This document shows positions 7,178 to 53,304 of a DNA stretch of 64,000 bases, piece by piece. Source of the stretch: Macrotis lagotis (lineage: Eukaryota; Chordata; Mammalia; Peramelemorphia; Peramelidae); NCBI RefSeq assembly GCF_037893015.1, contig NC_133658.1:59301818-59365817 (forward strand), in the 5' to 3' direction. A model generated the notes under the pieces. The model made no database searches, was not told the DNA's origin, and saw nothing but the letters and a program-made list of their open reading frames with translations. The position numbers and the translations under genes are program-made. Within the stretch, counting starts at the first letter, position 1. Each line of letters starts with the position of its first letter.

Positions 7178-7311
7178 TTATAAAATTTCTTGCTTAGGAA
7201 TGATGGTCTGGGGCAGTATTTGAATGGACATCTCAGACCTTCTGGCAGGGTCCAATTTGTAATCTTCATTCCCAGGGCTTGTAGGAGAAGAGGCAGATGT
7301 GTCTGGAGACA
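7178..7311 (-). CDS. HNF4B: HNF4B-like coding exon 10: C-terminus and stop
   Basis: A strong acceptor (TTTTTCCTCTCTTCAG) opens a phase-1 exon. Joined to exon 9 it reads [20 protein letters not shown], then [17 protein letters not shown] and IPKQEIL, ending at TAA (7180-7178). [13 protein letters not shown] parallels HNF4A TPETPQPSPPGGSG, EDYKL parallels EPYKLL, and PKQEIL parallels the HNF4A end TKQEVI. This ties the exon to the gene despite low overall similarity. HNF4G ends differently (KQKQL). Confidence 0.9.
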
Positions 7312-10300
7312 CTGAAGAGAGGAAAAAGATGTTAGTGCAGATTCTTTTCTTTCCCAGTTAAAATGTAAACTTCAGAAACGCAGCAGAATGAGCATTTTGA
7401 CCAGAGTTCACATTTATCTGTTAGCTAAATTGGTTGACAAGTCTGACAATCTCAAATGCTTATTTATCAGACTTGGCTTCCCCCATCCCAAATCAATCAA
7501 TCATAGTCGAGGGTAATTAATATTTTTTTGGTTAATTTTCCCCTTTGTCAGATGGTAAAACTGTGGATCCCTTCTCAGAATAAAGTTTTTAAATGCATTT
7601 AATGCATTTAATTTAAATGCATAAAATAAGATTACAGCATAAAGAAAACCAATTATATTGAAAATGTATACTGTAAAATTCATGAATCCCAGGTAAAGAA
7701 CCTTTGCTCTAAGACATTAAAATATTTCCTGATACCCCTAATAGCTGCATCTTAGTCCTACAGGGCCTTGCTTCTAGCCACTTGCTAGCTAATCCTTGCT
7801 AAAGTATGACTTCCCATGAATATTATATAGGTTCCCCTCATCTTTTTTTTGGGGGGGGGTTTGAAAGGCAATGAAGTTAAGTGGCTTGCCCAAAGTCACA
7901 CAGCTAGGTAGTTATTAAGTGTTTGAGGTCGGATTTGAACTCAGGTCCTCCTGACTGCAGGGCCAGTGCTCTATCCACTGCATCACCTAGCTGCCTGCTG
8001 TGCCCCTCGTCTTTAAGCTCTCTGTCAGTCCCGAAAGAAACTCTAGAATGGAATTTCAGGAACCCTAATTACTGGCAAGGTTGGTTTTGGGGAGCAAGGA
8101 GCCCTTATAAAGCACAGCATAGGGACAGCAATTCTCTTGGAGACTGCCCTCCATATACTGGAAGCCCAATTATTCCAACTGCCCTTTTGGTTTTTGTAAC
8201 TTTAGCCCAAAAACCCCACTTGGTGTCCTCACCATGACCTTCTGTGAAAGAACAGTTCTGGCTAGGGCCAGGTGCAGCCTGGATCACCGAACTGAGGGTG
8301 TTAGGAAGGATGTGGCCTGTGACTGGCTCCAGGTTTAAGTTGGGCATCCCAGAATGATACTGGGGCATCTCTGTGGTGTTCCCTGTAAGCAAGCATAGAG
8401 GAGAGTTCTGGTCAAGACTGCAGCAAAGTGGATTTCATGGTCTATACATGGGCCTGGGCACAATGAGTTTAATGGAGGGAAAGAAAGACATAAAATCCAG
8501 TTGTTGGGATGAGGTTTTTTTTTTCCTTTTTCATATTTAAAGCCATGACTATACTGAGACAATTCAGTGGCTTCTGATTGTGAGAGAATTAGATTTAAAT
8601 CATGTAAAGGAGGATTTGTGATTTCATCACTGATGCAGATTGCTAACCCCTCTTAGCATTATTAGAGTGTGCTTTTGCTGTGGCCCCCCAAATTCCCTTC
8701 CTACGACCAAAATTCTGCTGACTTTGATTAGCCTTTGGTCTGTCCCAGGACCCATACTGGTATCTTTCTAGCCTGGTAGAACTTGCTCCCATTTGTGCCT
8801 CCAGCTAAGTGCTGCCTTTCTGAGAATCCAGGGGTCAGTTCTAACAGCAGCAGCACCAAAAAAAAAAACCCCAAAACAAAAACCGCAAAAAACATTAAAG
8901 GGAGAAGTGGAGCATTCAGCTGGAACATTCACTTTTTCAGTTAGAAAGTGATAATGTAAAACTTCACTTAGTTAATAACTATGAATAAAATCAAGTTTTA
9001 TATCATAGCTAAATTGGGAAAGGGAGAGTTGAAATTGCAGAGGTGGGGAACTATGACTGTAGAATATTGCATTTGCCATCAGACTCAGTTAAGGTGTTGG
9101 TGAGCTTTGCCAAACTCTTCTTTCTTTTTTTATTCCCTGATACAGTGGATGACAGGAGGGAAGGAGAATGTACCTGGAAACAGATGGTGATGTGAAAATA
9201 AAAGATAACAATAAAAATGTGATGTAAAAGACAAAAATGGAAAGGTAGAAAGTGTCAAGAAATGGGAAAAACAGGAAGAATAAAAACTTAATCATTCGCC
9301 TTTCCCCCAATTTCTTTGTATTCAAAGGGAGAATGGACAGCCAATAAAGTCTTAGACAAAGTGAACTGGAATTCTCCATTATTCACTTATTTGCGGACCC
9401 TATGCAAGTCCCAGGTTCTGTTTTGTCATCTGTAAAATGGGGATAATTTGATCTACTTCATGGGGTCATTTCAATGGAAAATTGTAGGTAACCAATGCAG
9501 GTAATCAAATATTACAGTTACTGTTATCATCAGCTGTTGGGATCCAACATCTGGGAGGGAAGTGGGTTCCACCCCTTTCCTATGGGGCCTGGGCTGGCTG
9601 GACCTCCACATTGTCCAGAGCCCCCTATCTCCCCACCCCAGAGTTTATTCTAGCAACACTGATGTAGCGGTTGGAAGACTGCAAAGCGCGTAACATACAT
9701 TGGCTCATATCTTCACAACCTCTCTGATTTTACAGATGAGGAAACTGAGGTAGAGATTTGAGTGACTGTCAGAAGTGTCAGAAGGGAGTTGAGCTGGGGC
9801 CTTCCGGACTAGCGCTCTAGCCACTGAATCATCTCCAGCTCTTCCATCTTAATGGGAACAAAGCATTTCGGGGGGACCTGGCCAAAAGTCACCCCGGAGC
9901 TCCCAGTGGCCCGTAGTCTGGCCACGGCTGACCCCGGCAGTCTTCTCAGCCTTGCGGTGATGACTGGAGGACAGGACTGAGAGGGAGGGAGGGGAGGCGG
10001 GGTCTCGGAGGGCCACTCGGGTGGGAGAGGGAGCCACATGAGGGGTGGGACCTCAGAGGGAGAGGGAGAGGCACCGGGCAGGCTTTGAGAGAGGGACATG
10101 GGTGGGGGAAGGACACCCAGGTGGGGCGGGGTCTAAGAGGGAGGGACACCCAGGTGGGGCGGGGCCTAAGAGGGAGGACACCCCCCAGGCAGGCGGGGCC
10201 TAAGAGGGAGGGACACCCAGATGGGGCGGGGCCTAAGAGGGAGGACACCCCAGGTGGGTGGGGTCTAAGAGGGAGGGACACACAGGTAGGCGGGGCCTAA

Positions 10301-13300
10301 GAGGGAGGACACCCCAGGTGGGTGGGGTCTAAGAGGGAGGGACACCCAGGTAGGCGGGGTCTAAGAGGGAGGACACCCCAGGTGGGTGGGGTCTAAGAGG
10401 GAGGGACACACAGGTAGGCGGGGTCTAAGAGGGAGGACACCCCAGGTGGGTGGGGTCTAAGAGGGAGGGACACACAGGTAGGCGGGGTCTAAGAGGGAGG
10501 ACACCCCAGGTGGGTGGGGTCTAAGAGGGAGGGACACACAGGTAGGCGGGGTGGGGCGGGGCCTAAGAGGGAGGACACCCCCAGGTGGGCGGGGCCTAAG
10601 AGGGAGGGACACCCAGGCGGGCGGGGGGCGGCCGGGGCCTGGCCCACCTCCCAGCAGCATCTCCTGCAGCAGGCTGTCGATGCGCGCCATGCCGAAGAGC
10701 TTGACGAACTGGATCTGCTCGATCATCTGCCAGGTGATGCTCTGCAGCGGGGGCAGCAGCAGCAGCAGGTCGCTGAAGCGGCCCCGCGACTCGTACTGCC
10801 GGTCCGTCACGTAGTCCTCCAGGTTCACCTGCACCTGGAAGCGCAGCCGCTTCACCTTCCCGGGGTCGCTCAGGCCTTTGCAGTCTGCGCCAGGGAGAGA
10901 GAGCGGACGGGGCGGTGGTCGTGGTGGCCCCCCAACCCCCCAGCCGCGGCGACCCCCCTAGGGCAGCATCCCCCCCGCAAAGAGAAAGGGCTCCTCATCC
11001 GGGGCGGTCCCCCCCGCCCCAGCGCCTTGGCTGCCTCCTTTCCTGGCCGAATCGGCCTTGGGGTCTTTGCTGGGCATCAAAGGCTCCAAATACCAAAGGA
11101 ATGGGCATTGCTTAGTCGGCTGGGCTTCCCAGGACCGTCTGAGGCGGCCTCGGCCTGTTTTTTCTGTCTCCGGGCCCCTGCAATGCAGGAGGGGAGAGGA
11201 GAGGGGAGAGGAGAAAGGTGGCGAGAAAAGGAAGGAAGGAAGGAAGAAAAGAAGGAAGACAAAAAAGGTAGGAAGGAAGGAAAGAAAATCGTAGAGAAAA
11301 AAGGTAAGGCAGAAAGGTCAGAAGGAAGAAAAAAGATAGTAAGGAAGGAAGAAAAAAAGGAAGGAGAGAAGAAAAAAGTAGAAAGGAATAAAAGGGAAGG
11401 ATGGAAGGAAAGAAAAGGGTAGAAGGGAGGGAGAAAAGGAAAAGAGGAAAGAGAAGAAGGAAGGGAAGCCTCAAGGGAGGAAGAAAGGGAGGAACTCTTA
11501 AGTGTTTTACAAATATTTCATTTGATCTTCACAGTAAGCTAAGAGGAAGGAATCCCAGCACTGTCCCCCATCTGACAGTTGAGGACAAGAGACAGAGGTT
11601 TAGGGGACTAGCCCAGGGTCACACAGCTAGCAGATTTGTGAGGCTGGATACAAATTCAAGTATTCCTGACTCCAAGCCTGGAGCTCTATCCACTGAGCCA
11701 CACTAGCAGGGAGCTCTAATGAAAGCGGCTATAGCAGAAGTCCTTAACCTGAGGCTTGTGCACTTAAAACATTCCATGCTGGGTATTTCAATAGTATTTG
11801 TTTCCTTTCTAACGGGTGCGGTATAGGAATTTACAAACATGTTGAGAAGGTGCCCATCAGTCAGAGGACCCCTGGCACAACAAAGGGTAGAATTTCTGCG
11901 GAGAGAATGAGGGCAGCTGATAGGGCCGGCTGCCTGATTCTGCTTCCCTCCTCGCCTTTACTACTGCTCTGGGTACACCAGTACACTGAGGCAGTCACCC
12001 TTGGCAACTGGGTATTTTCCAAATGTTTAAAGGGTTTAGTTGTAAGGGCAACAATTCATTCAGATTTTATTCCAATCAGTGTTAATCAATGTGATACAAT
12101 TCCATGGGAATTATCATGATAGGTTATGTCTGTTAGAACTCAAATCTAGGGGCAGCTAGGTGGTGCAGTGGATAGAGCACCGGCCCTGGAGTCAGGAGTC
12201 CCTGAGTTCAAATCCGGCCTCAGACACTTAATAATTACCTAGCTGTGTGGCCTTGGGCAAGCCACTTAACCCCATTGCCCTGCAAAACAAAACAAAACAA
12301 AACAAAAAAACTAAAAAAAAACTCAGAGCTATGAACTGAGATGACAAGATCACTTGTATAATCATAGGAAGCTAGCTAGAGGTTCTCCACCCTTGTTTTT
12401 TTCTTGTCTTTGTATCAAAGCCCAGTGTGGCAGAGGTGACTCAACTAAATGGAAAATCCTCCAGTTTATTTTTGTGACTGCCGACCATGAACAAGTGACC
12501 ACCTAGTCAATATGCATGGCTTGTACCATCTCCTCCTGCCTAAGCCAAGAAGGAGCCCATCCATCTTGTGACCACCTAGTCAATAGAGATAATCCTTGCT
12601 TTACCCAACTCATGACCTTAATGACCTTTGTTTTTACCTAGTTTAGCTTATGTGTCATATGTCAACCAGTGGAATTATTCTGTATTAGAAATAGCCTTTT
12701 TTTTTAATGTTTAGATTTTAATCCTTATAAAAGAAGGACCCTCCTGGAAGGAGAGGGCATCTCAGATTGTGAGGAAGATCTGAGGTCCACTTCATTAGAG
12801 GGAACCACGAACTCAGATCTCTGCCTCAGTCTCTTTTATTGTTGGTGGGACAAGTTTAGTCATTCCAACTAACATGATAATTGTGAATACACAAATTGAT
12901 CCTTGTTGAACAAGAGACATCCATTTTTCCAGGTGGTTTAGTGGGTTAGAGCCCTGGGCTTGGAATCAGGAAGTTCTGAGGTCAGACTGCTTCAGACCCT
13001 AACTAGCTGTGCGATTGGGCAAAATACTTAAGCTTTCCTCACAGGTAAGCCTCCAGGCTTTTTCCCAGTGCTGAAGCTAGGATCCTCTGATTTCTTCTAT
13101 TTAGAGAACTCTGGATGGGGAAACTCTGCCACTATCAGTCTTAGAGAGGTTTTCTGAGAACCACTAAGAGATCAAATGACTTCTCCAGGATCACAAAACA
13201 ATGAATAAGATATGAATCAGAGGCAAGACTTGGATGTAGGTCTTCCTGACTTGAAGGCTGACACTGGACCTTTCCTTCCTCAATGGTATTGTTATTCAGT

Positions 13301-16300
13301 CATGTCCACTTCTTCATCACTCCATCTGGGATTTTCTTGGAAAAGATCCTAGAGTGGTTTGCTGTTTCCTTCTCTAGTTCATTTGACAGATAAGGAAACT
13401 AAGGTAAATAGGATGAAGTGACTTGCCCAGGGTCGCAACAGCGATTAAATGTGAACTCACAAAGATGAGTCTTTCTGACTCCAGACCCAATTTACTCTCA
13501 CTGAGCCACTTAGCTGCCCTCCATAAATCCTTCTCAATAAAGCTTTGTAACCTCTGCTTTCTCCCCACCCCACCCGCTTTGATTCTAGTGTAGAAACTTT
13601 CTTAGATTTGGAAGGAACTTTTGAGATCATATAGACCAACCACCTATGTAATATATGAATCCTGCCCAGTGACAGGTCACTCATTATCTTACAAGACAAC
13701 AACCTATCACACACTGAGCTGTATTTCTTGCTGTCAAACTGGCTCCCTGCATTCCTTCCATGTGTCCCAGTTCTTCCTGCTGGGGCCAAGTGAAATGAGC
13801 CAAATCTCTATTATAAACCATATTAGAAGCCCTTTAGGTATTTAAAGACAACTGTCTGACTGAAAGATTTTTTTTTTTGACTTGGTTTCAAGTTTCCTAA
13901 CCATCACTGTGCCAAAGCAGTGACTCAGAGAAGCCAGAATTGGTTGTTCTCATGGAGCCTTGTCAATATTAAGGATCCACAAACCCTTCAGTTAGGTGGC
14001 ACATTGGATAAAGCTTTGGATCAGGAGTCAGAAAAGACCTGAGTTCAAATCTGACCTCAGACATTCACTAGCCGAGGGACCCTGAGCACCCCTGTTAATC
14101 TGTTTCCTTATCTGTAAAATGGGAATAATAATACCACTACTTCAAAGGTTGTGAGGATCAAGTTAGATAATATTTGTAAAGTGATTACCCAGTGTCTGGT
14201 ATACAGTAGTCACATAATAAATGCACCCCTTGGGTGCTAAAAGGCATTACTTAAGTACTTACTATTATTGCCAGACAGTATTCTAAACCTGTTTGGATGG
14301 GTAGGAATATCAATGTGCCCAGAGTATTTTCTATCAATTTTATACCAAAATGCTTTCCTTTTTCCTTCCCACCTTTTCCCCCTTCTCTTAGCTGGTTTCT
14401 CTTTTCTGTCACCCTGACCCATTCCTACTCTTCCTTCATTTCTCTTTCTCCCTCCCTCCCTTTCTCCCTCCCTCCTTCTCTCCCTCCTTCCTTCTTTCCT
14501 CCCTCCCTTCCTCCCTTCCTTCCTTCCTTCCTTCCTTCCTTCCTTCCTTCCTTCCTTCCTTCCTTCCTTCCTTCCTTCCTTCCTTCCTTCCTCCTTCCCT
14601 CTCTTCTTTCCTTCCTTTCTCTCTCTCCCTCCTTCCTTCCCCCTTCCTTTCTCCCTCACTCCCTTCCCTCCCCCTCCTTTCCTTACTTTCCTTTCCCTTC
14701 CCTTCCCTCCCTCCCTCCCTCTCTCTCTCTCTCCCTCCCTCCTCTTTCTTCTTTCTTTCTCTTTCTGTCTGTCTGTCTTTTCTGCCTTCTTTTTTCCTTT
14801 CTTCTGTTTGCATACCTAGCCAGAGTCAGAGACTAGTGACTTATAATTCTCTTACCTGGATCAAAGAATATAATAGCTTTAAGACAAGCATATTCATTGT
14901 CATCAATGTGGATTTCTCTCAAGGGCTTGACCAACTCGTCCAGTATTCTTATAGCTACTCGAGCAATTTCCAATTCTGGGCAGTGCATAGGAATAATGAA
15001 ATCATTTCCTGGGGAGGAGTGAGAACAGCTGTATCATCTGCAAGGTATAGAATCATTTGCATTGGATTCTGTCAACTGGTATACCTGACATGAATGCCTA
15101 TAGAAACATAAGAACCTGTCTTTTAATATATCTACAAGAAGATATATTAAATCTCTCCCAGATTAGGCCCTAGGAGAGAAGCTCATAGGTATGGTAAGCT
15201 TGTAAGAAAATGGCCACCTGACCTAAGATCCATTTTGAATGAATAAATCTTTAGCCATTTAAGTAATGATTATTAGGAACTAAAGCCTAGTTTTGGGCAA
15301 AAAACCATGGAGATAGCCAGCCAGTTCTTTTAACTCCTTCTCCACACTTCTTATGATCTGGTCCTTTCCCTTATAAACCTTCCTCTCAGGAAAGGCACAG
15401 AAAAATTCACTCATCTTAAAAGTATAATTATAAATTATTAATAAATCTTAAAATTCAATTAAAATCTCAATCAAATTAATTCAATTAAAAATCTCATAAA
15501 AACCTATAGAACTGACTCATTTATTAATCAAACCCAATCTTCTGATGGGAATTTGCAGTTTCATATAAGACTGAAGGCATACTATAGGGCAACTAGGTGA
15601 TGAAATCTAGATGAATTGAATGCCAGCCTTGGAGTCAGAAAGACCTGAGTTCAAATACTTATTAGCTACATGACCTTGGACAAGTCACTTCACTCTGTTT
15701 GCCTCAGTTTCCTCATCTGTCAAATGAGCTAAAGAAGAAAATGGCAAGTCACTTAACCCTGTTTGCCTCAGGTTCCTCTTCTGTAAAAAGAACTGGAGGA
15801 GGAAATAGCAAACCATGCCAGAGTCTCTGCCAAGAAAACTCAAAGTGGGTCATGGAGATTTAGTCATGACTGAATAACAACAACAGAAAAGTCTAAGGAT
15901 TATTAAGAATGTGGTATTGTAGTGGTCAAGTTTCAAGCATTATTTGGCTTAAAGAAGAATTACTGGGGTAGAGGATCCAGAGTTAATAATTCCATTATAA
16001 CACAATACAGGTATTCTTTCCCCATAGGATTGAGTCTAGCTCTTTGTAATACTGATAAGGAAAGAATTCATATTTAACAAGTGAATTTTGGTTTTCTTTT
16101 AAATCCCAACAAAAATCCCATCTTCTGTAAGAAGCCTTTCCCTACACCTCTTAATTCTAGTGCTTTCCCCTCTGTTAATTATTGCTTGTTTATTTTGTAT
16201 ATATCCTTGAAGCTAGGGACTGTCTTTTGTCTCCATTTTTTAATCCCTAGTTTTTAGCCCAGTGTCAAGCACATTATTATTATTATTATAATATAAATTT

Positions 16301-19300: not shown

Positions 19301-22300
19301 TCCAACGAGTTAGTTTTCAAACTCTGGTCTTTTAGCTACAAATCCAATGTTCTTCTTTCCTTTAAAAGAGATGTACTAGAAAGAAAATAATACCTGGGGC
19401 AAAGAGATTTAAAATCTTACACCTGGTTCAAAGAAATTAAAGTCAGAAGTAGAAGATAGGGAAGGCATGGTTAGGCAACAATTTGAAGAAGACTGGGGGT
19501 CTTAGTGGTCTGCAATTGCAAGCAAGAGTATGAATAGTCCAAGTGGTTAATGCAATCTTCGGTGACTTTAAGCAATAAGAAATGGCCCTACTATCCTTTG
19601 CACCAGTCAACATACAGTTCTAGGTATCATAGTTTAGGAAGAATATTGGTATTTAGAGGTGGACAGCAAAATTGGTGGAGGGTCCTGAGTCTATATCGTA
19701 TAAAGACTGTTTGAAGGAATTGTGGATAGAGGGTAGCAGCATAGTGTAAGGCAAAGATCACTGAATTTGGACCCCTATTTGAACCTTGGTTCTGCCACTT
19801 GGTACTTGTGTGACCTTCAGCAGGTCACTTAAATCTTGGAGCTTCAGTTTAGTCATATATAAAAAAATGAGGGAATTAAACAAGTTAAACTCTAAGCTTC
19901 TTTCTAGTTTCAAAACAATGATCATATGATCAGTGTTTAGCATTGGAAAGAGAAGATTCAGGAGAGAAAAGACAACTGTCTTCAAATACTCAAATGGCAT
20001 ATATGGAAGAGAGAATTGATGTGTTCTGTTTGGCTCTAAAGAGAGGAAGCTAGGGCACTGGATGAAAGTTACAAAGGGACAAATTTAGGCTTGATGCCAG
20101 AGTAAACTTTCTAGCAATTAGAGAGGTTCAACAATGGAATGGACTGTCTCAGGATGTAATGGGTTCTCCTTCCCTCGAGTTCTTCAAGCAGAGGCTAAAT
20201 GACCACTTGTCAAATATATTTGTAATAGGGGTTCTTATTTGGGGTATAGGTTGAACTGCAGTCCTTTCCGCATCTAAAATTCTGGGATTCTATGACTATA
20301 CACACAAACACACACACACCCCTTTAGCCATATTTGCCTAAATACACACAGACACACAGACACACAGACACACACACACACACAAACACACTTCTTGTCC
20401 TATTTGTCTCTATATATTTAGTTATCTTACACTCCAGAAATACCTTATTCCCTTTTCTCTTTCAACTTGAAGGTCTCACCCTCATTTATCACAGCCCAGA
20501 CTGGGTCCCTTGTCTCTTCCAAGTAACTTGATCTGGCTACTCCAGACAGTAACATTGGTCTTATCTACTGGCTACTCCACACTGTAACACTGGCCTTATC
20601 TATTGATTCTTCTTCTCTGTGGCCAGACTAATTAACTCCCATTTCAGTGCTGGAAGTTGAGGTGTCATTCAATATTAGTAAAGATCTAACGATAGATGTT
20701 GGAGCAGAGCAAGAAAAGGGAATTCTGGAATGTTTACTCGTTTTACCTAAAAGTAGGAAATCCGTATAGGGAATAGATCGTTTGGCAACTCCCAGAAGAA
20801 GGTGTTCCCCAGCGTGGGCTCTTAATAATGCCACCTGCAAGCCGCACATGAGAGAAAAGAATTGATTATATAGGTGAAAAAAGAACTAGAAGAGGTCTTG
20901 GAGATTTAGGACAATCCCTTCATTTTGCAGATGGAGAATCTGAAAGAAAAAAGTCATTGATTCAGTCAATTTTAACTTCTTAATTAGTTTTAGAATGTTA
21001 ATCTGCTCTCATTTTACAAGAATTTGAGGCCCAGAGAAAGAAAAGTAACTTCATCCTTTTCATACTGGTTAAAGCAGGATCAGGACTAGATTTTAGAATG
21101 CTCTGTCCATTTTTTTCCTCCCTTCTGAACCATGCTGCCTCTTCTTTTGGCTCAATAGCCAAGGATTCCTTTGGAGTTGGAATGAGACTATCTAGTACAG
21201 CCTTTCATTTTTACAGATGAAAAACCAAAACTTAGACAGGAGATTGGGTTTGTTTAAAGCCACACAGTTCAGAGCAGGGCTCGGACTAGAACCCAAGGAT
21301 TCTTGTACAATATTCTTTTTAGTTCCTAAAAAAGAAGGGAGTTTTATTTTGGTCTTTTGTGTTTGATGTATAATCTTTCCCCAATATTATTCCTCTTCCT
21401 TCACTCATATTCATTTTTTTTTTTTTTAGTTTTTGCAAGCCAATGGGGTTAAGTGTCTTGCCCAAGGCCACACAGCTAGGTAATTATTAAGTGTCTGAGA
21501 CTGGATTTGAACCCAGGTACTCCTGACTCCAGGGCCGGTGCTCTATCCACTGCACCACCTAGCTGCCCCCATATTCAGTTTTCTAAAAAAAAAAAAAAAA
21601 AAAAAGAAAAGAATCAAATAAAACTCAAGAAATCATAACTTAATAATCCTGGCAAACCTTGTACAGCTGTAAGATTCTTTCTCTTTTTTCAGAGGAGAGA
21701 AGGGAAATGTGATTCGTTGTCTTTTCTCTGGGATCAAGATAGAACAAAGAAAGGGAGTACTTAACAAAATTCATGGCTTAGCAAAATATTAGCACTGTTG
21801 CTTTTGTTTACATTATTATGACATTATGCATCTTTTTCTCTTGATTCTATTTTTTCTGTTCCATGTGAGTCCATATAAATTTTCTTTTGGCAACTAGATG
21901 GCGAGCATCAGACTTGAGTTCAGAAGATCTGAGTTCAAATTTGGTCTCAGATGCTTACTAGTTGTATGACCTGAGGAAATCATTCCATCTCTATTTGCCG
22001 TAGTTTTCTCATCTGTAAAATGAACATGATAATACACCTTCTTCCTAGGCTTGTTGCGAGAATCAAATGAGAAAATAATTATAAAGTGCTTAGTGCTATC
22101 TAGATGTTAGTTATTATTATTATCTTGGTCATTATTATGCCCCATAAATTTATAATTTTGCATTCTTTCTCTTGCAAGTCAACACTTATTTATTATTTAT
22201 ATTTAATTTTTTTGAAAGTCAGCACTTTTCATTTCTACTTTCCCCACGAAATTTATTTAGATTAATTCTATAACTTCTTGAAATTTTTATTGCTGTAGCA

Positions 22301-28932: not shown

Positions 28933-28984
<52 letters not shown>

Positions 28985-37900: not shown

Positions 37901-40900
37901 CTCAATAAAGAGTTCAGGGTAGATGCTAAAGGGAGACTATGTCATTGGTATCCTTTCTTTTGAGATGTCTAGAAAAGTCTTAGAATCTCAGAATCTAGAA
38001 CCTAAGAGAATAGACAGTTCCTGCTTTCTTTCCCTCCTCTTACCCTTCTTCCTCTTCTTCTTTTCTCTCCTCTTCACCTCAACAACTACCAAATTTGAAA
38101 TCCAAAGTTAAGAAGGGGTGATAATAAGAGCATTCTCCTACCTGGGTTGCCATCACTTCTGCTTGGGTCAGGATGGCAATCGACAGGGACCCACTGTCTT
38201 CATAGCTGTTCCTGCGAATGCTTATACGGTCTCGCTCATTCTGTACAGCTTTGAGAAGGAGATACACACAGACAACTGAGTATTAGCAGGGCTCATTATA
38301 AAAATCATTCATGATCTATAACAGGTAATCAGCTACTTTTTGAATACACTTAATAGTCAACTAATAACCCACAGACAAAAATCTGTTGGGTAATGACTAT
38401 GTGCTAACTTTGAGATTGACTCTGGAAGGGATATGAAGAAAAATAGGAAAAGGTACCTGCCCCAAAGGAGATGATAGACTGGTTGGGGAGATCTTAGACA
38501 AGTGACTTACTTTTCCTTGGCCTCAGTTTCCTTTGTCACAAAAAGGAAGTCAGATTCAGTGATCTCTAATTTCCTTTTCACAAGCTTTATAATTCTACAA
38601 TTTCACTGCATGACTTGAGAGAAAGGTTCACAACTTAACATGGGAAATAACCTTGAAAGCCAAACTCTTCCATTCAACAGATGAGGAAACTAAGGTCAAG
38701 AGAGATGACTTGCCCATGGACATGTAGTTAGTAAGGACAGATCCAAGATTCAAACTCAAGTCATTTGATGATAAATCCAGAACTCTTTAAAATGTACCCA
38801 CACACTAAGGTCAAATAGGTGAAAGACAATATTTGATGATGATGATGATGATAATTCATGTTTCTAAAGAGATTTATGGTTCAAGTACCTGTCTCTCAAC
38901 AACCCTGTGAAGTAGGTAGGACAAGTATTATCTTTATTTTTTAGATGATAAAATAAGAATATTAGCTTCAATTTAGATGGCACTTAAATTTAACCCTTTA
39001 ATCTTTTGACCCCTAAATCTACATTTTTACAACATCCTATAATCTCACTGCATTCTCATAACAACCTTGTGAAGCAAGGATAGTGGATAGATTGTTATGA
39101 AGCAAGGATAGTGGATAGATTGTTATGAAGACCTTAATTCAAATCCAGCCTCAGACACTTACTAGATGTGTGACCTGGGCAAGTCATTTAACCTCTGACT
39201 GTCTTAGTTTCCTCATTTGTAAAATAGGGCTAATAATTGCCCTTCCCTCCCAGAGTTGTCGAGGATCAAATGGGTTAATATTTGTAAAGAGTTTAGCATA
39301 GTGTCTGAATCACAATAAGTCCTATATAAATATTAGTTATAATAATAATTCTTGAACAAGACCATGACATCAGGGAGTGATGCCATGACAAGCATATGTA
39401 CTGGATTTGAGTGGGGGGTATTGTGTTAAGTCACTAGCCTTACTTTCTCCTCTGGAACTATATGATTCAGTGTCCAGATATGGATCACAATGACTGGAGC
39501 TATTACTCTTGTTTTACAAATGAATAAAATTAACTAAATTAAGACTAAAACAGGTTAAGTTGACAAAATAAATACTGGAGGCAGTTGCAGAATCCAAAGC
39601 TCCCCCAATTCCAAGTTCAAGACTCTTTCCACCCTAACCATATTGTCTTAGAAAGTCAAGACCCAGCAAAGTTAAGTGATTTGCTGATGGCATATGATTC
39701 ATAATTGGGGCCAACTCTCAAATCCAGATCTTACTGTAATCTCCTTCTGCTACATCATAGAACCAGATCAAACAATCAAGCTTTAGAGGAATCAAAGAAG
39801 AGAGATCTAAGGTGATCAGTGAAAGCTTCACCAAGGAAGTAAGGGTTTGGGGGTTTGTGAATGGCAGAACAAATTGGAGAGTTGGATAGTAAACTCAAGA
39901 ACCTAGTTAATTATGATGGCATGCCAATGCCTTGCTATATCTTATCAATGAATAGGGTGGGTGTTGGTCATGCCTGGCTAAAATAAAGTGATGATAAAGC
40001 ATTATTAATATTCCTTTAAAGGGAAACATCTCAAGCTTTCCTAACTTATCTCAAGTTTCCAAACTGTTTATATGGTACATATTCTGATAAGATTAAATTG
40101 CCACTATGGAGCTGCTTCAAGATGATTTTCTCAAGGTGATTTTTTTTGTGATCACTACAATTTCCTTAGAAGTCAGGCTTGGGCCGAAACAGAATTGTTA
40201 ATGATTCACCCACCATGAAAAAACAGGCAAATTTTGCGTCCTCTAATGCTGCAATATTTATTATGTTCCTAAGTAGAGCAGAGGTTAGTTCTCATTCCAA
40301 TCTTGGCTTGGTTGTTGAAGGTTTGTCTCAGTCTTATATGAGACTAAGTAAAACTTCACCCCTGTCATTTCACCTGATATTTTAGTGTCCCCATCATCAC
40401 ATCTTGATGTCTTGCAGGGAAACTTGCTGGAGGTCTGATAGGCTCATCTTATTTCTCACTAAGCTTCCCAAAGAATTATCTCTTCCAGGCAGTTACTGTG
40501 CTACCCCCTCACACTCAAAACTCCACCATAACTGAACTCGATATCTAACCTGGTTCAGCTAAGTCCTAATTGTGAGATTTTTGGGGGGAAATCAATCACA
40601 GTTTCTACCTCTATAAAATGAAAGGTTTGAGATATCTCTAAGGTAACCTCCCCCCAACTCTATGATCCTTTGATCTTCCCTGCAAAATTTGTCTCTGCTG
40701 CTTTCCTCATTATTTATAAATGGGACTATCATACTCTTAGCTACCTAGATAGACATCTTTGACTTGCACCTCTCCTTTATTTCCTCCCTAGAGTGCTTCA
40801 CTAACCTCTAATGATTTTCCCCTCATGCATCCATTTCCTGCAGTCTCAGTTTCATTGGTTTCTTCTGTTGATTCCTCCACCATTGCTCTCATCCTTATAT

Positions 40901-43900: not shown

Positions 43901-46900
43901 CAGTTCTTTTCCCAACATGTTCCCTGAAATCTTCATGTATCATACCAGCTGACAGTAAAATTAACCTTTCTCCCCTTTCCTCCCCTACCATTTTCTGAGG
44001 CTCTTACTTGGTCCTGCTCATATACTGCCTTGTTCTATCAGATTTTTCATTAGATTGGTTCAATCATAGATCTAGGAAGAACCCAAGAACTCAGTTTAGC
44101 AAAATCTTCTCATTTCCCCCAAGGAGGAAAGTGCTCATGGCCAGAGCTGAGATTCAAACCTAGATTCTCTGATTATCAATTTTTTCTTATAGGTACATCA
44201 GTAAGGAGTTGATCAATCAATTAATCAATAAACATTTATTATATACCTACACAAAGACAAAAAATAACAATAGTAAGTATTTTCACTTTATAAATATTAT
44301 CTTATTTAATTCATACCATAAGCCTGAAAGACAGGCGCCATTGCTATCTTCATTTTACAGATGAAAAAAATTGAGACACAAAGTGGTTTAGTGATTTGCC
44401 CAGGCTCAGTCAGCCAGTAAATATCTTAGGTTGGATTTGACCCCAGGTCTGGCTGACCTCAGGTTCAGCACTCTATCCACTGCCCATTAGAAACTTATAT
44501 TTCATCAGTTTGATGAACTTTCAGCTAATATATTTTGCTTGGGATTTTGGATTGCATCTCCTATGGAAGATGTAGATCTACCTAGAGACAACTGGTGGAG
44601 AGACCTGAGGGGCAACAATTAGGCATGCTCAGCAACATCTCACTGAGGATGGGGATATGTCCTTAAGTCTCATTCACTGAGGATCAAGTAATTGACTTGG
44701 GTTGTTATGGGTTGGAGCCACCATTTTGTGCAGAACCTATAGAAGGGGAAAAGCTCAGTGATGGAGCTGACTCATTTCTCAGAGATGATTTGGGTGGATA
44801 ACCCCTTGAACTGTCATAAGGGATAGAGAGTGGATTTTTGCCAATGAGTCTTACTGCCCAAGTGAGCTTGGGCAGGCTCATTTTTCAATGACCCATACAG
44901 ATCTCTACACCATTTATTGAAGAGAAGTTGCCAACTTTTGTTGGCAGAGAGTGTGTTTCCTTACCTGGAAGATTTTGTCTAGAAAAAAAATCAGAACTTT
45001 GGTTCTGGGCTATGGATTACAAGTTCTATTTTCCTAATAAATTGTGTTCTTGATGGCAGGGATTTAAGCATCTCTGGTATGGCAGAGATCCCTAGGTCCT
45101 AAATTGAAAACTTATGCACATTAGGGATGGTGATTGGAACTGGACCTCTGATTCTATTAGTATAGTTTGAATTCCTCTCTCCCAGGTGGGGAAACTTATT
45201 TACCAATGCAAATTGACCTTCCTCAGTAAAACCTAAACTTCAAGAAGTGTTTGGAGCACTGAGGGATTAGGTAACTAACATAACCACTATGTGTCAGAGG
45301 CAGGACTCACATCCAAATCTTCATTTCTCTGAGGCTGTATCTTTATTTAGGTATTTAAATAGTAGGTAAAGATTGAATTATAAGTGCAATTTAAGCAGCA
45401 TTAGAATCATGACCATCACAACATCTAGAAAATGGAAAGAATTGAATTTTGGACCCACCTTCTTTCTTCATTCCAGCTCTAAAACATTTCCTCAGTCGAC
45501 AATATCTGCATTGATTCCTCTTGTCTTTGTCAATTATACACTGTCTGTTAAACCTGAGGGGGGAGAAGTGAAGGTTATTGATTTTTCCTTCTCCAGGGTG
45601 GGCAGCCTGTTTTCTGAGATCACTGTTTTTCACAACCCTAGAGACCGGGAAACTTGACTTATTCCTGGGGGCAAGGACTCCCCAGTTCCCAGAACCTTGT
45701 AGGTGTTATTAATTACTCCCATTTTACAGAATAGAAAATTGAGGCAGATAGAGGTTTTTGTACTTGGGTCTTTCAGACTGTAAGTCCTGTGCTCTATCGA
45801 CTGTGTTCTAAGTAAGCATTTCCTATATGTTTTATATACTTATAATTCAATTGAATTCAACCAACATTTATCAAGTGCCTACTATTTTCAAAGGTATCAA
45901 CATAGTGTTCTTGATGGAGTGTTGGATTTCAAGTCAAGAAGACTTGTGATCTGGTCATGACTTTGATATAAATGTTGTGGGACAATGGGCAAGTCCCACC
46001 TTCTCTGAGTCTCATACAAGTCTCTGAGTCTAGAGAGTTTGCACTTGACAAGACTGCCATGTTGGCCCACCAATATAGGTGTTGAGTATTGAAGGGGAAG
46101 GAGGTGGAATACAAATAGAGAGACCCACCCTGCTTTCAAGGGATTTCCATTCTACTAGGTATGTATGCATACAAATAGGAACATATATGTGTGTATATGT
46201 ATGCACCCAACTTTTAAACAGATAAACGTGTGTGATAATTTGAGGAGGGAGAGAACCATAGCAACCTAGTGGGTTTTGGTAGGTTGCTTGGTCAGTTTTC
46301 TAGGAGATAATGGAAACTTGAAGGGCCTAGTACGCTATATATGGTTCATGGGATCATGAAGACTGCATAAAAATGAATGAATGAACGATAAAAAACAATC
46401 TCCCAGAATTGTTGTGAGGATAAAATGAGATATTTATCAATTACTATGTCTTTGATCATTATATAAATATATAAAAATAGATATATATTTATATAATGAT
46501 CAACATATACATACATATATATATATATATATATATGAAGATGTTGAAATGACATGGTCAGACCTGTGCTTAAGGAAAATCACAGGCAGCTATTAGGAGC
46601 ATGAACCAAGAGAAGGGAAAGACTTAAGAAGCTCTTGCAATAATAGCAAGCGCAGTCAAGAGGTGAGGGGTACCTGAACCAGGTTGGTGTCTGTGTGAGT
46701 ATATGTAGAAGGGAATTTGTGTGAGAGATGCTATAGAGATAGAAGGTCAAGATTTGATGAATGATCAGAAATTTGGAATGAAAAGAGTGGAGAGGCAAGG
46801 ATGATATCAAAGTTGTGAACCAGGGAGATAGGAAGGCTGATGATGTTCTTCAAAGTAACAGAAAAGTTAAGTGGAGGCTTTCACTTTTTAAATTGGGGGC

Positions 46901-52900: not shown

Positions 52901-53304
52901 GAGAATTCAAAGAAAGGCTCCTGATCCCAGAAGTCAACATTTTAATTTTAGATCAATTAAAGAATGAACAGAATTATGAAGTTGTTTAAAAAGAGACTGG
53001 AAAACTGTCTGCTGAGGCAGCTCCTTCACTGGGTGGCAAGTGGGAGCAGATAGCTTCTAAGATCCCTTCCAACTTGAAGAGCTCATGGTGCTATTATCAT
53101 ACCTGCAAGAATAGACATGGTTCTTGCGGACACTCCTCCGGAAGAATCCTTTGCATCCATCGCAGCTGGAAGCACCATAGTGTTTGCCCGTAGCACGATC
53201 TCCGCAGATGGAACAGAGAGAATTAATTCCATTACTCAGTGAGTTGCCCTGGCTGGATTCTGGTGATGTGACCTCTGGGGGGCCTAGCCCTGAGTCTCTG
53301 TGCC
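7178..53304 (-). CDS. HNF4B: HNF4-family nuclear receptor gene, HNF4B-like (coding exons 2-10; first exon not found)
   Basis: This is a ligand-binding-type transcription factor of the NR2A group, which binds DR1-type DNA elements as a homodimer in the nucleus. Nine exons were found by reading the minus strand. Their lengths (202, 95, 107, 156, 88, 153, 237, 150, 134 coding bases) and phases join without a break into 440 codons plus stop, and every intron is GT-AG. Domain order is A/B tail, C4 zinc-finger domain, hinge, ligand-binding domain, AF-2 (LLQEMLLG), F domain. As I recall human HNF4A, exon lengths match exactly for exons 3 and 4 and closely elsewhere. The family assignment is firm. 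The paralogue assignment is inference: exon 7 and the F domain differ from both HNF4A and HNF4G, which suggests HNF4B. No in-frame stop or damaged splice site is seen, so the gene looks functional. Confidence 0.93.
7312..8232 (-). other. Intron 9 of the HNF4B-like gene
   Basis: A 0.9 kb intron with donor GTGAGG and acceptor CTTCAG. One WSINE1-like SINE (7843-8002) fills much of its upstream part; the rest shows nothing recognisable. Confidence 0.85.
7843..8002 (-). mobile_element. WSINE1-like SINE in intron 9
   Basis: Full-length copy flanked by CCCCTCATCTTT/CCCCTCGTCTTT. Confidence 0.9.
8233..8382 (-). CDS. HNF4B: HNF4B-like coding exon 9: first part of F domain
   Basis: Follows the phase-1 end of exon 8 (G plus GG gives Gly) and reads [19 protein letters not shown], then [18 protein letters not shown] and [20 protein letters not shown] loosely matches the HNF4G F-domain string DPLTGQTILL. 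Acceptor TTGCTTACAG, donor CATG followed by GTGAGG. Both length (150 bases) and phase (1 to 1) agree with HNF4A exon 9, whose donor is also GTGAG. The F domain modulates coactivator access in HNF4A; its role here is inferred. The sequence is poorly conserved, so confidence rests on phase, splice sites and position. Confidence 0.87.
9660..9835 (-). mobile_element. CORE/MIR-type SINE
   Basis: CTCATATCTTCACAACCTCT, TTTACAGATGAGGAAACTGA and a diverged tRNA-like head; older than the WSINE1-like copies. Confidence 0.7.
10095..10625. repeat. 32-bp GC-rich minisatellite beside exon 8
   Basis: About 15 tandem units share a core of CTAAGAGGGAGG on the plus strand. Two alternating 32-bp variants (GGACACCCCAGGTGGGTGGG and GGGACACACAGGTAGGCGGG as distinguishing parts) form a 64-bp higher-order unit over much of the array. 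The plus strand is G-rich, so the HNF4B-like transcript is C-rich here. Open frames across the array are artefacts of the period plus lack of stops. Spacers and repeats are one continuous unit, so it is not a CRISPR array. Confidence 0.95.
10648..10884 (-). CDS. HNF4B: HNF4B-like coding exon 8: dimer interface and AF-2 helix
   Basis: Encodes [69 protein letters not shown] and SLLQEMLLG, i.e. the last ligand-domain helices. The AF-2 coactivator helix LLQEMLLG is intact. Private residues include [12 protein letters not shown] and PPLQ (HNF4A: INDRQYDS, GELL, PTLQ), so this is not a recent conversion from HNF4A. Acceptor CCTGGCGCAG, donor GGGAG followed by GTGGGC. By hand count 76 of 78 full codons end in G or C. 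A 32-bp minisatellite starts right after the donor. Confidence 0.97.
11170..11500. repeat. GGAA-rich purine tract (pyrimidine in transcript sense)
   Basis: About 330 bases of almost pure purine on the plus strand, built on GGAA, GAAA and GAGG units with interruptions. In the gene sense strand it is a UUCC-type pyrimidine tract about 290 bases before the exon 8 acceptor. Confidence 0.95.
11560..11706 (-). mobile_element. CORE/MIR-type SINE
   Basis: AGCCCAGGGTCACACAGCTA and GAGCTCTATCCACTGAGCCA. Confidence 0.7.
12132..12873 (+). mobile_element. Solo-LTR-like fossil with a SINE inside
   Basis: A segment starting TGTTAGAACT and ending CCAACTAACA has the TG...CA ends and short inverted termini of a retroviral LTR. 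A TATAAAA box lies near 12727. Two copies of GTGACCACCTAGTCAATA about 73 bases apart resemble U3 enhancer repeats. A WSINE1-like SINE lies inside. No flanking duplication is clear and no internal retroviral region is seen. Family undetermined; it predates the SINE insertion. Confidence 0.5.
12149..12320 (+). mobile_element. WSINE1-like SINE inside the LTR-like segment
   Basis: GGGGCAGCTAGGTGGTGCAG head and a CAAAA-rich tail. Flanked by AACTCAAATCTA/AACTCAGAGCTA, showing insertion into the older LTR. Confidence 0.9.
13285..13519 (-). mobile_element. Mar-type tRNA SINE
   Basis: GGGATTTTCTTGGAAAAGAT, AGTGACTTGCCCAGGGTC and CACTGAGCCACTTAGCTGCC; the longer SINE family, also seen at 16490, 23195, 26440 and 49195. 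Confidence 0.75.
13991..14225 (+). mobile_element. CORE-type SINE, near full length
   Basis: GACCTGAGTTCAAATCTGAC head, TTATCTGTAAAATGGGAATA core, TTGTAAAGTGATTACCCAGT and a CATAATAAATG end. Confidence 0.75.
14400..14810. repeat. CCTT-rich pyrimidine tract with pure (TTCC)n core (purine in transcript sense)
   Basis: About 400 bases of almost pure pyrimidine on the plus strand, with an uninterrupted TTCC run from about 14513 to 14590. In the gene sense strand it is GGAA-type purine, starting about 45 bases after the exon 7 donor. Confidence 0.95.
14856..15008 (-). CDS. HNF4B: HNF4B-like coding exon 7: ligand-binding domain
   Basis: Encodes [34 protein letters not shown] and [16 protein letters not shown]. 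This is the most informative exon for paralogy. NDFIIP-HCPEL resembles HNF4A (NDYIVPRHCPEL), but the one-residue-shorter ELEIARVA and CLKAI resemble HNF4G (EVEISRVA, CLKAI). VKPLREIH is in neither. Acceptor CTCCTCCCCAG, donor GATCCAG followed by GTAAGA. Only 17 of 50 third codon positions are G or C, against 76 of 78 in exon 8. About 45 bases past the donor the transcript enters a long GGAA-rich purine tract. Confidence 0.96.
15588..15895 (+). mobile_element. Mar-type tRNA SINE with an internal duplication
   Basis: The CAAGTCACTT...TTTGCCTCA...CTGTAAA segment occurs twice in a row (about 15675-15735 and 15745-15800). The element ends GACTGAATAACAACAACA. Confidence 0.75.
16085..16770 (+). mobile_element. 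L2 LINE tail split by another LINE piece and a SINE
   Basis: AAGAAGCCTTTCCCTACACC to TTTAGCCCAGTGTCAAGCAC is an L2 tail. It resumes at about 16724 with ATGGTACCTAGAGATAGCAG and ends GTTTATTGATTGATTG. Between the parts are a non-LTR fragment (about 16290-16470) and a Mar/CORE-type SINE (16490-16720). Confidence 0.6.
16490..16720 (-). mobile_element. Mar-type tRNA SINE
   Basis: GAGTTTTCTTGGCAAAGATA, TTGCCCAGGGTCTCACAGC and GCGCTCTATCCACTACACT. Confidence 0.75.
18941..19095 (-). mobile_element. WSINE1-like SINE
   Basis: Full body complement ending CACCTAGCTGTCCC. Flanks share an imperfect GCATTTTT/ACATTTTT. Confidence 0.85.
19905..20300 (+). mobile_element. CR1/L3-like LINE 3' end
   Basis: Contains ACTTTCTAGCAATTAGAG, AATGGAATGGACTGTCTCAG and TCTTCAAGCAGAGGCTAAAT, and ends at GGGATTCTATGA, the ATTCTATGA-type terminus of CR1-clade elements. 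No open frame remains. Confidence 0.6.
20298..20395. repeat. CA-rich microsatellite
   Basis: ACACAC and ACACAG units, interrupted by a short unrelated stretch. Confidence 0.9.
20747..20834 (-). CDS. HNF4B: HNF4B-like coding exon 6: ligand-binding domain
   Basis: Encodes [15 protein letters not shown] then [14 protein letters not shown], ending in phase 1. The Arg of KRS corresponds to HNF4A Arg226, which holds the fatty-acid carboxylate in crystal structures, and it is present. The preceding pocket residue, Ala in HNF4A and HNF4G (LLLGATKRS), is Val here. Acceptor GGCTTGCAG, donor TTTTAG followed by GTAAAA. The 88-base length fits the 29 codons seen in human HNF4A. Confidence 0.97.
21414..21569 (-). 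mobile_element. WSINE1-like SINE
   Basis: Full-length copy close to consensus. Flanked by CATATTCA on both sides. Confidence 0.92.
21886..22125 (+). mobile_element. CORE-type SINE
   Basis: GATCTGAGTTCAAATTTGGT, TCATCTGTAAAATGAACATG and TATAAAGTGCTTAGTGCTAT. Confidence 0.7.
22630..22850 (+). mobile_element. L2 LINE tail with TA repeat
   Basis: CTTTGCACTAGCCATTCCCC and AATGCACTCCTTTCTTACCC match L2. It runs into a TATG/TATA microsatellite (22764-22812) and a TTAATTGATTGA end. Confidence 0.55.
23195..23455 (-). mobile_element. Mar-type tRNA SINE
   Basis: TTTGTCTGACTCTTTGTGAC, TTTGACAGATGCAGAAACTG and CTCTATCCACTGTGTCATCT. Confidence 0.75.
24200..24346 (+). mobile_element. WSINE1-like SINE
   Basis: Short internal deletion in the head-to-tail join. 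Flanked by ATCCAGTTCA on both sides. Confidence 0.9.
25370..25540 (+). mobile_element. L2 LINE tail
   Basis: CTTCTTGAGGGCAGGAACTA and TTAGAGCAGTACCCATCACT are typical of the L2 3' end. Confidence 0.55.
26440..26670 (-). mobile_element. Mar-type tRNA SINE
   Basis: TGATTCTTCATGACCCCATA, GGGATTTTCTTGGCAACGAT and AGCAGGGTTAAGTGGCTTG. Confidence 0.75.
26744..26907 (-). mobile_element. WSINE1-like SINE
   Basis: Full body. Flanked by GATATAAGTTTT/GATCTAAGTTTT. Confidence 0.9.
27260..27415 (-). CDS. HNF4B: HNF4B-like coding exon 5: start of ligand-binding domain
   Basis: Encodes 52 codons: a variable [16 protein letters not shown] lead, then [26 protein letters not shown] and [10 protein letters not shown], i.e. 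the first ligand-domain helices. Pocket residues recalled for HNF4A (Val178, Ser181, Met182, Gln185) are kept. The near-invariant FCELPLDDQ of HNF4A and HNF4G reads FWELPLDDQ here, a Cys-to-Trp change. Acceptor TTGGCAG, donor GACCAG followed by GTAGGG. The exon is phase 0 at both ends, joining exons 4 and 6. Confidence 0.97.
28265..28414 (-). mobile_element. WSINE1-like SINE
   Basis: Full body. Flanked by GACTCAAGGGCTT/GACTCAAAGGCTT. It contributes part of a 217-codon chance open frame. Confidence 0.9.
28908..28982. repeat. CT microsatellite
   Basis: CTAT-containing lead-in, then a pure CT run ending at 28982. Confidence 0.95.
30822..31075 (+). mobile_element. Third SINE family copy inside an antisense L2
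   Basis: Starts CTGTTCTTCATTCTCAAAGA, then ACCAGGGAGGTGACATCGTG and a SINE-type GCCCAAGGTCACACAGCTAG. Relatives with a GACCATGACATCAGGGAG-type head lie at 39349-39490 and 59575-59730. Confidence 0.6.
32027..32179 (-). mobile_element. WSINE1-like SINE inside an antisense L2
   Basis: Full-length copy close to consensus. Flanked by the perfect duplication GAGGACTCCTATCTT. Confidence 0.93.
32748..32880 (-). mobile_element. Diverged WSINE1-like SINE
   Basis: GGCAAGGCAATGGGATTAAG then GACTCCAAGGCTGGCATTCT, missing part of the centre. Confidence 0.75.
33170..33740 (+). mobile_element. CR1/L3-like LINE 3' region, interrupted by a hAT-type element
   Basis: Resembles the 3' end of CR1-clade LINEs: TTTTCAAGTACTTAAAGG, then a purine-rich stretch, then AGGAAACTTCCTAACAATCAG after the inserted element. 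The same order of motifs recurs uninterrupted at 19905-20300. Non-coding and old. Confidence 0.6.
33335..33555 (+). mobile_element. hAT-type non-autonomous DNA transposon, copy 1
   Basis: A 221-bp element with imperfect terminal inverted repeats (CAGGGGTGGGGAACC at the left, GTTCTCCATCTCTG at the right) and no coding capacity. It is flanked by GTATAAAA and CTATAAGA, 6 of 8 matching, consistent with an 8-bp hAT target duplication. It interrupts a CR1/L3-like LINE whose sequence resumes on the other side. Confidence 0.75.
34181..34440. repeat. GAT repeat and GAA/GGA purine tract
   Basis: GATGAT units (34191-34238), then about 190 bases of nearly pure purine. In the gene sense strand it is a UCAUCA/UUCUUC-type tract in intron 4. 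Confidence 0.95.
34430..34625 (-). mobile_element. CORE-type SINE
   Basis: ATAACAACCTTGGGAGATAG, GGGGAAACTGAGGCAGG and TTGCCCAAGGTCACAC; abuts the GAA-rich tract. Confidence 0.7.
38142..38248 (-). CDS. HNF4B: HNF4B-like coding exon 4: hinge
   Basis: Encodes [20 protein letters not shown] and then [15 protein letters not shown], the hinge between the DNA- and ligand-binding domains. [11 protein letters not shown] is almost invariant in HNF4 proteins. The YEDS segment is HNF4A-like (HNF4G has TFDGSN), while ILTQAEV is between HNF4A LLQAEV and HNF4G LAQAEV. The acceptor is TTCTCAAAG and the donor is CCCAG followed by GTAGGA. The length is 107 bases, phase 1 to phase 0, as in HNF4A. Confidence 0.96.
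39071..39126. repeat. Perfect 28-bp tandem duplication
   Basis: Two identical 28-base copies in a row, each starting GAAGCAAGGATAGTGGATAG and ending ATTGTTAT. Confidence 0.97.
39130..39345 (+). mobile_element. CORE-type SINE
   Basis: CTTAATTCAAATCCAGCCTC, TCATTTGTAAAATAGGGCTA and TTGTAAAGAGTTTAGCATAG. Confidence 0.7.
39349..39490 (+). mobile_element. Third SINE family, partial copy
   Basis: TTCTTGAACAAGACCATGAC, ATCAGGGAGTGATGCCATGA and CTTACTTTCTCCTCTGG. Confidence 0.6.
40690..41370 (+). mobile_element. L2 LINE fragment
   Basis: Matches the L2 reverse transcriptase-distal region in sense: AATCTTTTAATGGCTTCCTA, then GGGATAAAATCAAGAGTTCT, CACAATCTGGACCCAG and CTATTCTCTATATCTAGAAT. Old, without an open frame. 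Confidence 0.65.
44262..44486 (-). mobile_element. CORE-type SINE
   Basis: TCATTTTACAGATGAAAAAA, GATTTGCCCAGGCTCAGTC and GCACTCTATCCACTGCCC. Confidence 0.7.
45459..45553 (-). CDS. HNF4B: HNF4B-like coding exon 3: second zinc finger
   Basis: Translates as FNRQC followed by [18 protein letters not shown] and FRAGMKKE, the second C4 zinc finger and C-terminal extension. It follows directly on the phase-2 end of exon 2 (AG plus G gives Arg). The acceptor is CCCCCCTCAG and the donor is GAAG followed by GTGGGT. At 95 bases it equals the HNF4A exon. CRLRKC has Arg where HNF4A has Lys, as in HNF4G. RQCII replaces RQCVV of both human paralogues, a conservative private change. Confidence 0.97.
46455..46538. 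repeat. TA microsatellite
   Basis: TATATAAA units and a pure TA run near 46514-46536. Confidence 0.9.
46550..46900 (-). mobile_element. Antisense L2 fragment
   Basis: ATGACATGGTCAGACCTGTG followed by a purine-rich stretch with GATGATATCAAAGTTGTGAA is the complement of L2 5' of its tail, the same family as 30370-32460. Confidence 0.45.
48000..49020 (+). mobile_element. L2 LINE 3' region, interrupted by a SINE
   Basis: L2-like order of motifs, ending with TAGAAAGTCAGCTCTTTATG, GAGGCTGGCATACAGTGGGT and TCAATACTTGTTGACTGATT. A WSINE1-like SINE at 48549-48711 splits it and duplicates TTAAGCACCATTTC on both sides. Confidence 0.7.
48549..48711 (-). mobile_element. WSINE1-like SINE inside a sense L2
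   Basis: Full-length copy flanked by the perfect 14-bp duplication TTAAGCACCATTTC. Confidence 0.93.
49195..49430 (-). mobile_element. Mar-type tRNA SINE abutting the BovB fragment
   Basis: GAGGTTTTCTTGGCAACAGT, GGCAAACAGGGTTAAGTGA and ACTCTATCCACTGTGCCAG. Confidence 0.75.
49455..50640 (-). mobile_element. BovB/RTE-type LINE fragment (reverse transcriptase region)
   Basis: About 1.2 kb on the minus strand matches, from memory, the reverse transcriptase region of BovB-type RTE elements, position by position over its full length. Minus-strand translation shows pieces such as [18 protein letters not shown] and [20 protein letters not shown], corresponding to the YAGQEATVRTGHGTTDW and GVRQGCILSPCLFNLYAEYI region of BovB. 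The catalytic YADD motif is not visible in an open frame and the frame is interrupted, so this is an inactive, 5'- and 3'-incomplete copy. It lies in intron 2 in the same orientation as the gene. Confidence 0.8.
52060..52290 (+). mobile_element. L2 LINE tail
   Basis: GAGCTACATGAAAGCAAGGA, TTCTTTGCACATAGTAAGC and a TAAATAAATG end match the L2 3' end. Confidence 0.5.
52500..52960 (-). mobile_element. Antisense L2 fragment
   Basis: AAGGCAATAGGGAGCTAATT to GGCTGCTATAATCAACAAGG resembles the antisense L2 body. An antisense L2 tail (CAATCAGTCAATAAGCATTC) follows at 52838. Confidence 0.45.
52985..53080 (+). mobile_element. CR1/L3-like LINE fragment next to exon 2
   Basis: A short remnant with GAGACTGGAAAACTGTCTGC and AGATCCCTTCCAACTTGAAG, like the 3' end of CR1-clade LINEs. 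It ends about 22 bases from the exon 2 donor, antisense to the gene. Confidence 0.45.
53103..53304 (-). CDS. HNF4B: HNF4B-like coding exon 2: A/B tail and first zinc finger
   Basis: The minus strand encodes 66 full codons. The first 28 form a Ser/Pro/Gly-rich A/B tail ([15 protein letters not shown]). Then comes zinc finger 1, with CSIC and CDGC as the zinc-binding cysteine pairs and the P-box in CDGCKGFF, which sets half-site recognition. It ends [12 protein letters not shown]. The donor is CTTGCAG followed by GTATGA. The acceptor follows a pyrimidine-rich stretch ending TTTTAAAG. The exon runs from phase 1 to phase 2, as in HNF4A. Two alternative AG acceptors in the same phase lie further in, so the start could be 10 or more residues later. 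With the chosen acceptor the tail is about 8 residues longer than I expect for HNF4A. Confidence 0.95.

Follow-up and report, generated by a model that had tools for sequence, protein, structure and literature searches.

An apparently intact HNF4B-like third HNF4 paralogue in the genome of the marsupial Macrotis lagotis

Main

Mammals are described as having two HNF4 genes, HNF4A and HNF4G (excerpts of PMC5495071 and PMC10438950). A third gene beside these two, HNF4B, has been described in Xenopus, zebrafish, grass carp and birds, according to the portions of the literature cited here, in which higher vertebrates are stated to be without hnf4b (excerpt of PMC10450339) and Hnf4b is called absent in mammals (excerpt of PMC12425335). 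A literature search returned marsupial HNF4B in no title or abstract among the matches listed; the gene may already figure in automatic public annotation. Here, we describe a gene from the marsupial Macrotis lagotis that is likewise a third gene beside HNF4A and HNF4G. Unlike the HNF4B of frogs, fish and birds it sits in a mammal, and it is likened to that gene by position and age, not by sequence alignment.

Gene structure

The window, by which we mean the whole stretch of 64,000 nucleotides that was analysed (C1:59301818-59365817), belongs to a genome searched here as 3.66 Gb in 607 contigs. Nine minus-strand exons, running from 53304 to 7178, join in phase into 439 open codons and a stop codon when the DNA is read, and splice sites and translation give AG/GT and a phase-preserving join at every junction. 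The conserved exons were located by tblastn with HNF4A and HNF4G sequences and their boundaries were set by reading the DNA; exon 9 was missed by tblastn and was picked up by following the reading frames between exons 8 and 10. Positions are those of the window unless a contig is named, and the evidence for each exon is given in brackets.

Exon 1, C1:59370006-59369892 (window-equivalent 68189-68075), minus strand: start exon, beyond the window (HNF4-type translation)
Exon 2, 53103..53304, minus strand: end of the A/B region and first zinc finger (tblastn, splice sites, translation)
Exon 3, 45459..45553, minus strand: second zinc finger (tblastn, splice sites)
Exon 4, 38142..38248, minus strand: hinge (tblastn, splice sites)
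Exon 5, 27260..27415, minus strand: hinge and start of the ligand-binding domain (tblastn, splice sites)
Exon 6, 20747..20834, minus strand: ligand-binding domain (tblastn, splice sites)
Exon 7, 14856..15008, minus strand: ligand-binding domain with the pi-turn motif RILDE and the private VKPLREIH (tblastn, splice sites; pi-turn as in an excerpt of PMC8092661)
Exon 8, 10648..10884, minus strand: dimer helices and AF-2 helix, LLQEMLLGG (tblastn, splice sites)
Exon 9, 8233..8382, minus strand: first part of the F domain (frame reading, splice sites)
Exon 10, 7178..7311, minus strand: end of the F domain (...IIPKQEIL), stop codon TAA at 7180-7178 (splice sites, translation)

The original prediction had placed nine exons with an open HNF4 frame at these sites and on this strand, and the structure was recovered as described. 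The translation likewise has the PKQEIL ending, an exon 7 of mixed character and, within it, VKPLREIH as a private motif. Its protein of 440 residues is indeed an open frame, but one of 439 residues plus a stop, the stop evidently having been counted. That the gene is intact held in so far as there is no internal stop and the stop codon is kept, whereas the nine exons contain no start codon ahead of the DNA-binding domain (DBD), and the frame of exon 2 reaches an upstream stop without a methionine.

No convincing first exon came out of the window itself, whether by tblastn, by BLOSUM window scans that used the first exons of HNF4A and HNF4G as well as P2-type ones, or by a search for an ATG paired with a donor. 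The start exon was found in the adjoining 8 kb, about 4.2 kb past the right end of the window. It opens with an ATG, its translation begins MKIHETIMDMDMPDYS and it ends in a phase-1 GTGAGT donor; the HNF4-kind first-exon translation, from C1:59370006-59369892, is MKIHETIMDMDMPDYSVSLDASYTMLEFENLRVLPTNS. With this exon the coding sequence of ten exons comes to 1437 nt and 478 residues with 0 internal stops.

Two exons offer a choice of splice site. In exon 2, an alternative in-phase acceptor would move the start to 53274 and drop a 10-residue insert that is absent from HNF4A and HNF4G, and exon 9 has two in-phase donors 6 nt apart, ending it at 8233 or 8239 within the F domain. All four splice combinations are open (4/4), the alternative sites giving 466-476 residues. 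The F domain of human HNF4A is also alternatively spliced (excerpt of PMC10438950).

Family membership and conserved residues

The joined protein matches human HNF4A (4iqr) with a phmmer E value of 4.6e-173, which excludes chance resemblance. Among the best 60 of 123 phmmer matches to solved nuclear receptors, HNF4A and HNF4G take the top eight places and RXR comes next, and the Pfam families zf-C4 (3.9e-30) and Hormone_recep (1.1e-42) both score above their cut-offs. The HNF4-type pi-turn RxxxE (here RILDE) and the HNF4-specific dimer tryptophan (W349, in SITWQ), both named in an excerpt of PMC8092661, are kept. So are the equivalents of R226 and G237, the pocket arginine and the AF-2 helix. 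Of 18 positions assigned to the fatty-acid pocket, 13 are the same in HNF4A, HNF4G and the window protein, four match one of the two where these differ, and one, where V stands in place of A223, differs from both. A position assigned to a dimer salt bridge has changed from E to D. Unusual residues occur in the exon 4 hinge and in exon 5 (LSIA, FWELPL). Four scans of viral and prokaryote collections returned no HNF4 relatives.

As a side observation, exon 4 (38142-38248) encodes isoleucine (ISIRR) at the position of T139 in human HNF4A, at which HNF4A and HNF4G of the same genome have threonine. The type 2 diabetes variant rs1800961 is T139I in human HNF4A (excerpt of PMC11193738).

HNF4A and HNF4G elsewhere in the genome

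Whole-genome searches with the window protein, human HNF4A and human HNF4G, in which the best 125 of 148, 91 of 163 and 95 of 158 candidates, respectively, were scored, found HNF4-grade loci at three places, namely in the window, at C1:248249439-248280854 and at C9:400903372-400923575. The rest of these best candidates are less identical and correspond to other nuclear receptors. Assembled from its exons, the locus at C1 248.25-248.28 Mb is identical to human HNF4A at 307/319 positions from DBD to ligand-binding domain (LBD), and the locus at C9 400.90-400.92 Mb is identical to human HNF4G at 306/318, that is, 96% in each case. The genome therefore has both a separate HNF4A (C1, 248 Mb) and a separate HNF4G (C9, 400.9 Mb).

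Over the same region the window protein is only 76-79% identical to any of these genes (246/318 to marsupial HNF4A, 242/318 to marsupial HNF4G, 250/318 to human HNF4A and 242/318 to human HNF4G), in keeping with the earlier claim that it fits neither mammalian paralogue. It resembles both. Against human HNF4A, 65/71 DBD and 159/198 LBD residues are identical, and the order and joining phases of the exons are common to the window gene and the displayed HNF4A exons of its own genome; against human HNF4G the corresponding counts are 65/71 and 153/198, and exon 9 is similar (EPVTGHIL versus DPLTGQTIL). However, just 20/38 residues of the N terminus and 26/89 of the F domain are identical to human HNF4A, these being the most divergent parts of the window protein among those compared. 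The LBD differs from that of human HNF4A at 39-40 of 198 sites (20%). Between fish and mammalian Hnf4a, 28 substitutions and one deletion are reported for an LBD taken somewhat longer (excerpt of PMC12425335), and with 39 changes in 198 the window protein is thus farther from HNF4A than is a fish orthologue.

Neighbouring genes

On the plus strand, ZDHHC7 exons lie at C1:59279571-59297729, and about 11 kb separates the last of them from the stop codon of the window gene. Two LCCL exons lie on the minus strand at C1:59.503 and 59.523 Mb, the nearer one about 133 kb upstream of exon 1. The second-LCCL exon there is 86% identical to a CRISPLD2 fragment, versus 58% for its counterpart near HNF4G, while the first-LCCL exons (68% versus 65%) do not discriminate. 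From these likenesses, we read the LCCL exons 0.13 Mb away from the window gene as CRISPLD2, and those 0.8 Mb away from HNF4G as CRISPLD1. A CAP-domain search gave five matches, all on C2 and none near any HNF4 locus; as CRISPLD2 itself was missed, we take the search to be uninformative where exons are split.

Junctophilin exons were found at C9:402.7 Mb (near HNF4G), C1:248.5 Mb (near HNF4A), C1:54.9 Mb (at a distance of 4.4 Mb to the window gene) and C4:181.9 Mb; which junctophilin is which we infer. CRISPLD and junctophilin paralogues are thus found near HNF4G, and a junctophilin near HNF4A. The window gene lies in a block paralogous to that of HNF4G and in part to that of HNF4A, as expected from the pattern of the early vertebrate genome duplications. 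In the window flanks, 12 frames contained 0 Pfam families, over a range that excludes the introns, 62320-64000 of the minus strand and 53320-54299 of the plus strand, and Rfam at gathering scores and ARAGORN gave 0 matches. In human, CRISPLD2 and ZDHHC7 are adjacent on 16q24.1, and the interval separating them is not known to contain an HNF4 gene, so that a loss there would be in place.

The junctophilin exons near HNF4A are doubled (C1:248.487-248.752 Mb), about 210 kb apart and with equal scores, which points either to a recent duplication or to a haplotype left unmerged in the assembly. At C6:137559199-137560067, ZDHHC7 matches extend over most of the protein in less than 1 kb and include internal stop codons; this stretch is probably a processed pseudogene.

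Position among the HNF4 genes

Trees combined the window protein with marsupial and human HNF4A and HNF4G in sets of 7, 6 and 5 taxa, the last with no outgroup. The best topology tested places the window protein outside both the HNF4A and the HNF4G clade. A position beside marsupial HNF4A in the HNF4A clade is rejected by the AU test (p = 0.0022, 0.0038 and 6.2e-5 for 7, 6 and 5 taxa), as is one within the HNF4G clade (5.4e-5, 7.8e-4 and 1.7e-6). The more lenient SH test excludes the HNF4G clade only (0.008-0.014) and does not reject the HNF4A clade (0.067-0.108). By AU, then, the protein does not group inside mammalian HNF4A (p <=0.004) or HNF4G (p <0.001).

The deeper order is less sharply drawn. 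A sister position to the whole of HNF4A (AU 0.15, 0.17) or the whole of HNF4G (0.06, 0.18) is not rejected, and quartets with human HNF4A, human HNF4G and either fly or RXR are near-star, with the branching order not separated. When RXR is the sole outgroup, the window protein falls with HNF4A in the best quartet, though not to a significant degree. The free 7-taxon tree draws RXR beside HNF4G, which we take for a long-branch effect. Over 318 columns the window protein differs from human HNF4A at 67 and from human HNF4G at 76, versus 52 between HNF4A and HNF4G. Its branch has about twice the length of the HNF4A branch, and 15 sites common to HNF4A, HNF4G and fly are changed in it. When residues are polarised by a fly sequence, it shares 0/11 G-derived and 4/10 A-derived residues.

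These results bear on the possibility that the gene is a fast-evolving, marsupial-specific or therian duplicate of HNF4A or HNF4G. The shared A-derived residues, the slightly greater nearness to human HNF4A than to HNF4G (250 versus 242 of 318) and the leniency of the SH test towards the HNF4A clade are what such a duplicate might show. However, AU rejects both clades, not one G-derived residue is shared, and the gene has flanks of its own (ZDHHC7 and CRISPLD2) whose block has counterparts of CRISPLD and junctophilin near HNF4G, which is unexpected for a recent copy. We hold a duplicate of this kind to be highly improbable.

Another reading is a fourth vertebrate HNF4 paralogue, distinct from HNF4B. 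Two genome duplications could leave four copies, the branching is near-star and the comparisons took in no HNF4B sequence; but only three HNF4-grade loci were found among the best genome candidates scored, and the excerpts of the cited papers name no fourth kind, which makes this reading exceedingly improbable. An HNF4B-like third paralogue, as originally proposed, is supported by the separate HNF4A and HNF4G, the AU tests and the paralogous neighbour block. Orthology to the HNF4B of frogs, fish and birds is the best reading of the sequence, and it is drawn from position and age rather than from a tree.

Coding potential under neutral decay

An HNF4B that died recently could still look open, and the unusual LSIA and FWELPL of the exon 4 hinge and exon 5, together with a branch longer than that of HNF4A or HNF4G, would suit such a gene. 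A random point mutation of the coding sequence creates a stop in 3.2-3.9% of cases. In a simple decay model with 34 splice bases, which leaves out exon 1 and does not count indels, the probability that no stop arises and the splice sites are kept under neutrality falls from 0.022 at 0.05 substitutions per site to 5e-4 at 0.1 and to 1e-10 at 0.3. Had the gene been functionless since the marsupial-placental split, breakage would therefore be expected. However, the start codon, the splice sites of all ten exons and the stop are intact, and the neutral probability is already as low as 0.022 at 0.05 substitutions per site before indels are considered. Recent death is thus very unlikely. With high confidence, we read the gene as a functional HNF4B, the third vertebrate HNF4 gene (NR2A), retained complete in a marsupial.

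Discussion

From what is general in the family, the HNF4B product would act on HNF4 (direct-repeat-1) elements as a nuclear, constitutively active homodimer whose pocket is occupied by a fatty acid. Its targets would be expected to overlap those of HNF4A and HNF4G, and it would differ from these chiefly through its F domain and N terminus; given that these are its most divergent parts, cofactor choice is the likeliest special property. In zebrafish, hnf4b and hnf4a are reported to act together when yolk lipid is mobilised (excerpt of the review PMC10450339). On the strength of that report, the likeliest special role of the marsupial gene would be lipid handling in the oocyte or yolk sac. Marsupials have a yolk-sac placenta. 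Marsupial HNF4B might be a working regulator of the supply of yolk and yolk-sac lipid, its in-place loss in placental mammals having followed the loss of yolk dependence, with marsupials as the intermediate state; we offer this as a tentative idea that is rather unlikely to hold.

The loss of HNF4B was probably confined to the placental lineage, where its absence is taken from the cited excerpts and from the human gene order; the gene would have been lost in place, between CRISPLD2 and ZDHHC7. An intact marsupial HNF4B moves the loss to the placental line and offers a mammal in which the third HNF4 gene can be studied. It opens two questions to testing: whether HNF4B disappeared in step with yolk, and which of its tasks passed to HNF4A and HNF4G. 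Its neighbours also point to the human interval (16q24.1) in which a relic of HNF4B can be searched for.

Base composition and repeats

Third positions are 97% G+C in exon 8, versus 33-73% in the remaining eight exons of the window. A minisatellite with a 32/64-base unit (10106-10640) comes to within about 8 bases of the end of exon 8 at 10648; the region 10106-10884 has the look of a local GC-biased hotspot. A CCTT/CTCC tetranucleotide array of about 300 bases (14448-14744) follows about 110 bases after the exon 7 donor. Four marsupial SINE motifs, the basis on which the sequence itself was assigned to a marsupial, gave 18 matches, versus 0 for the reversed controls, and two platypus SINE motifs and one Alu motif gave 0.
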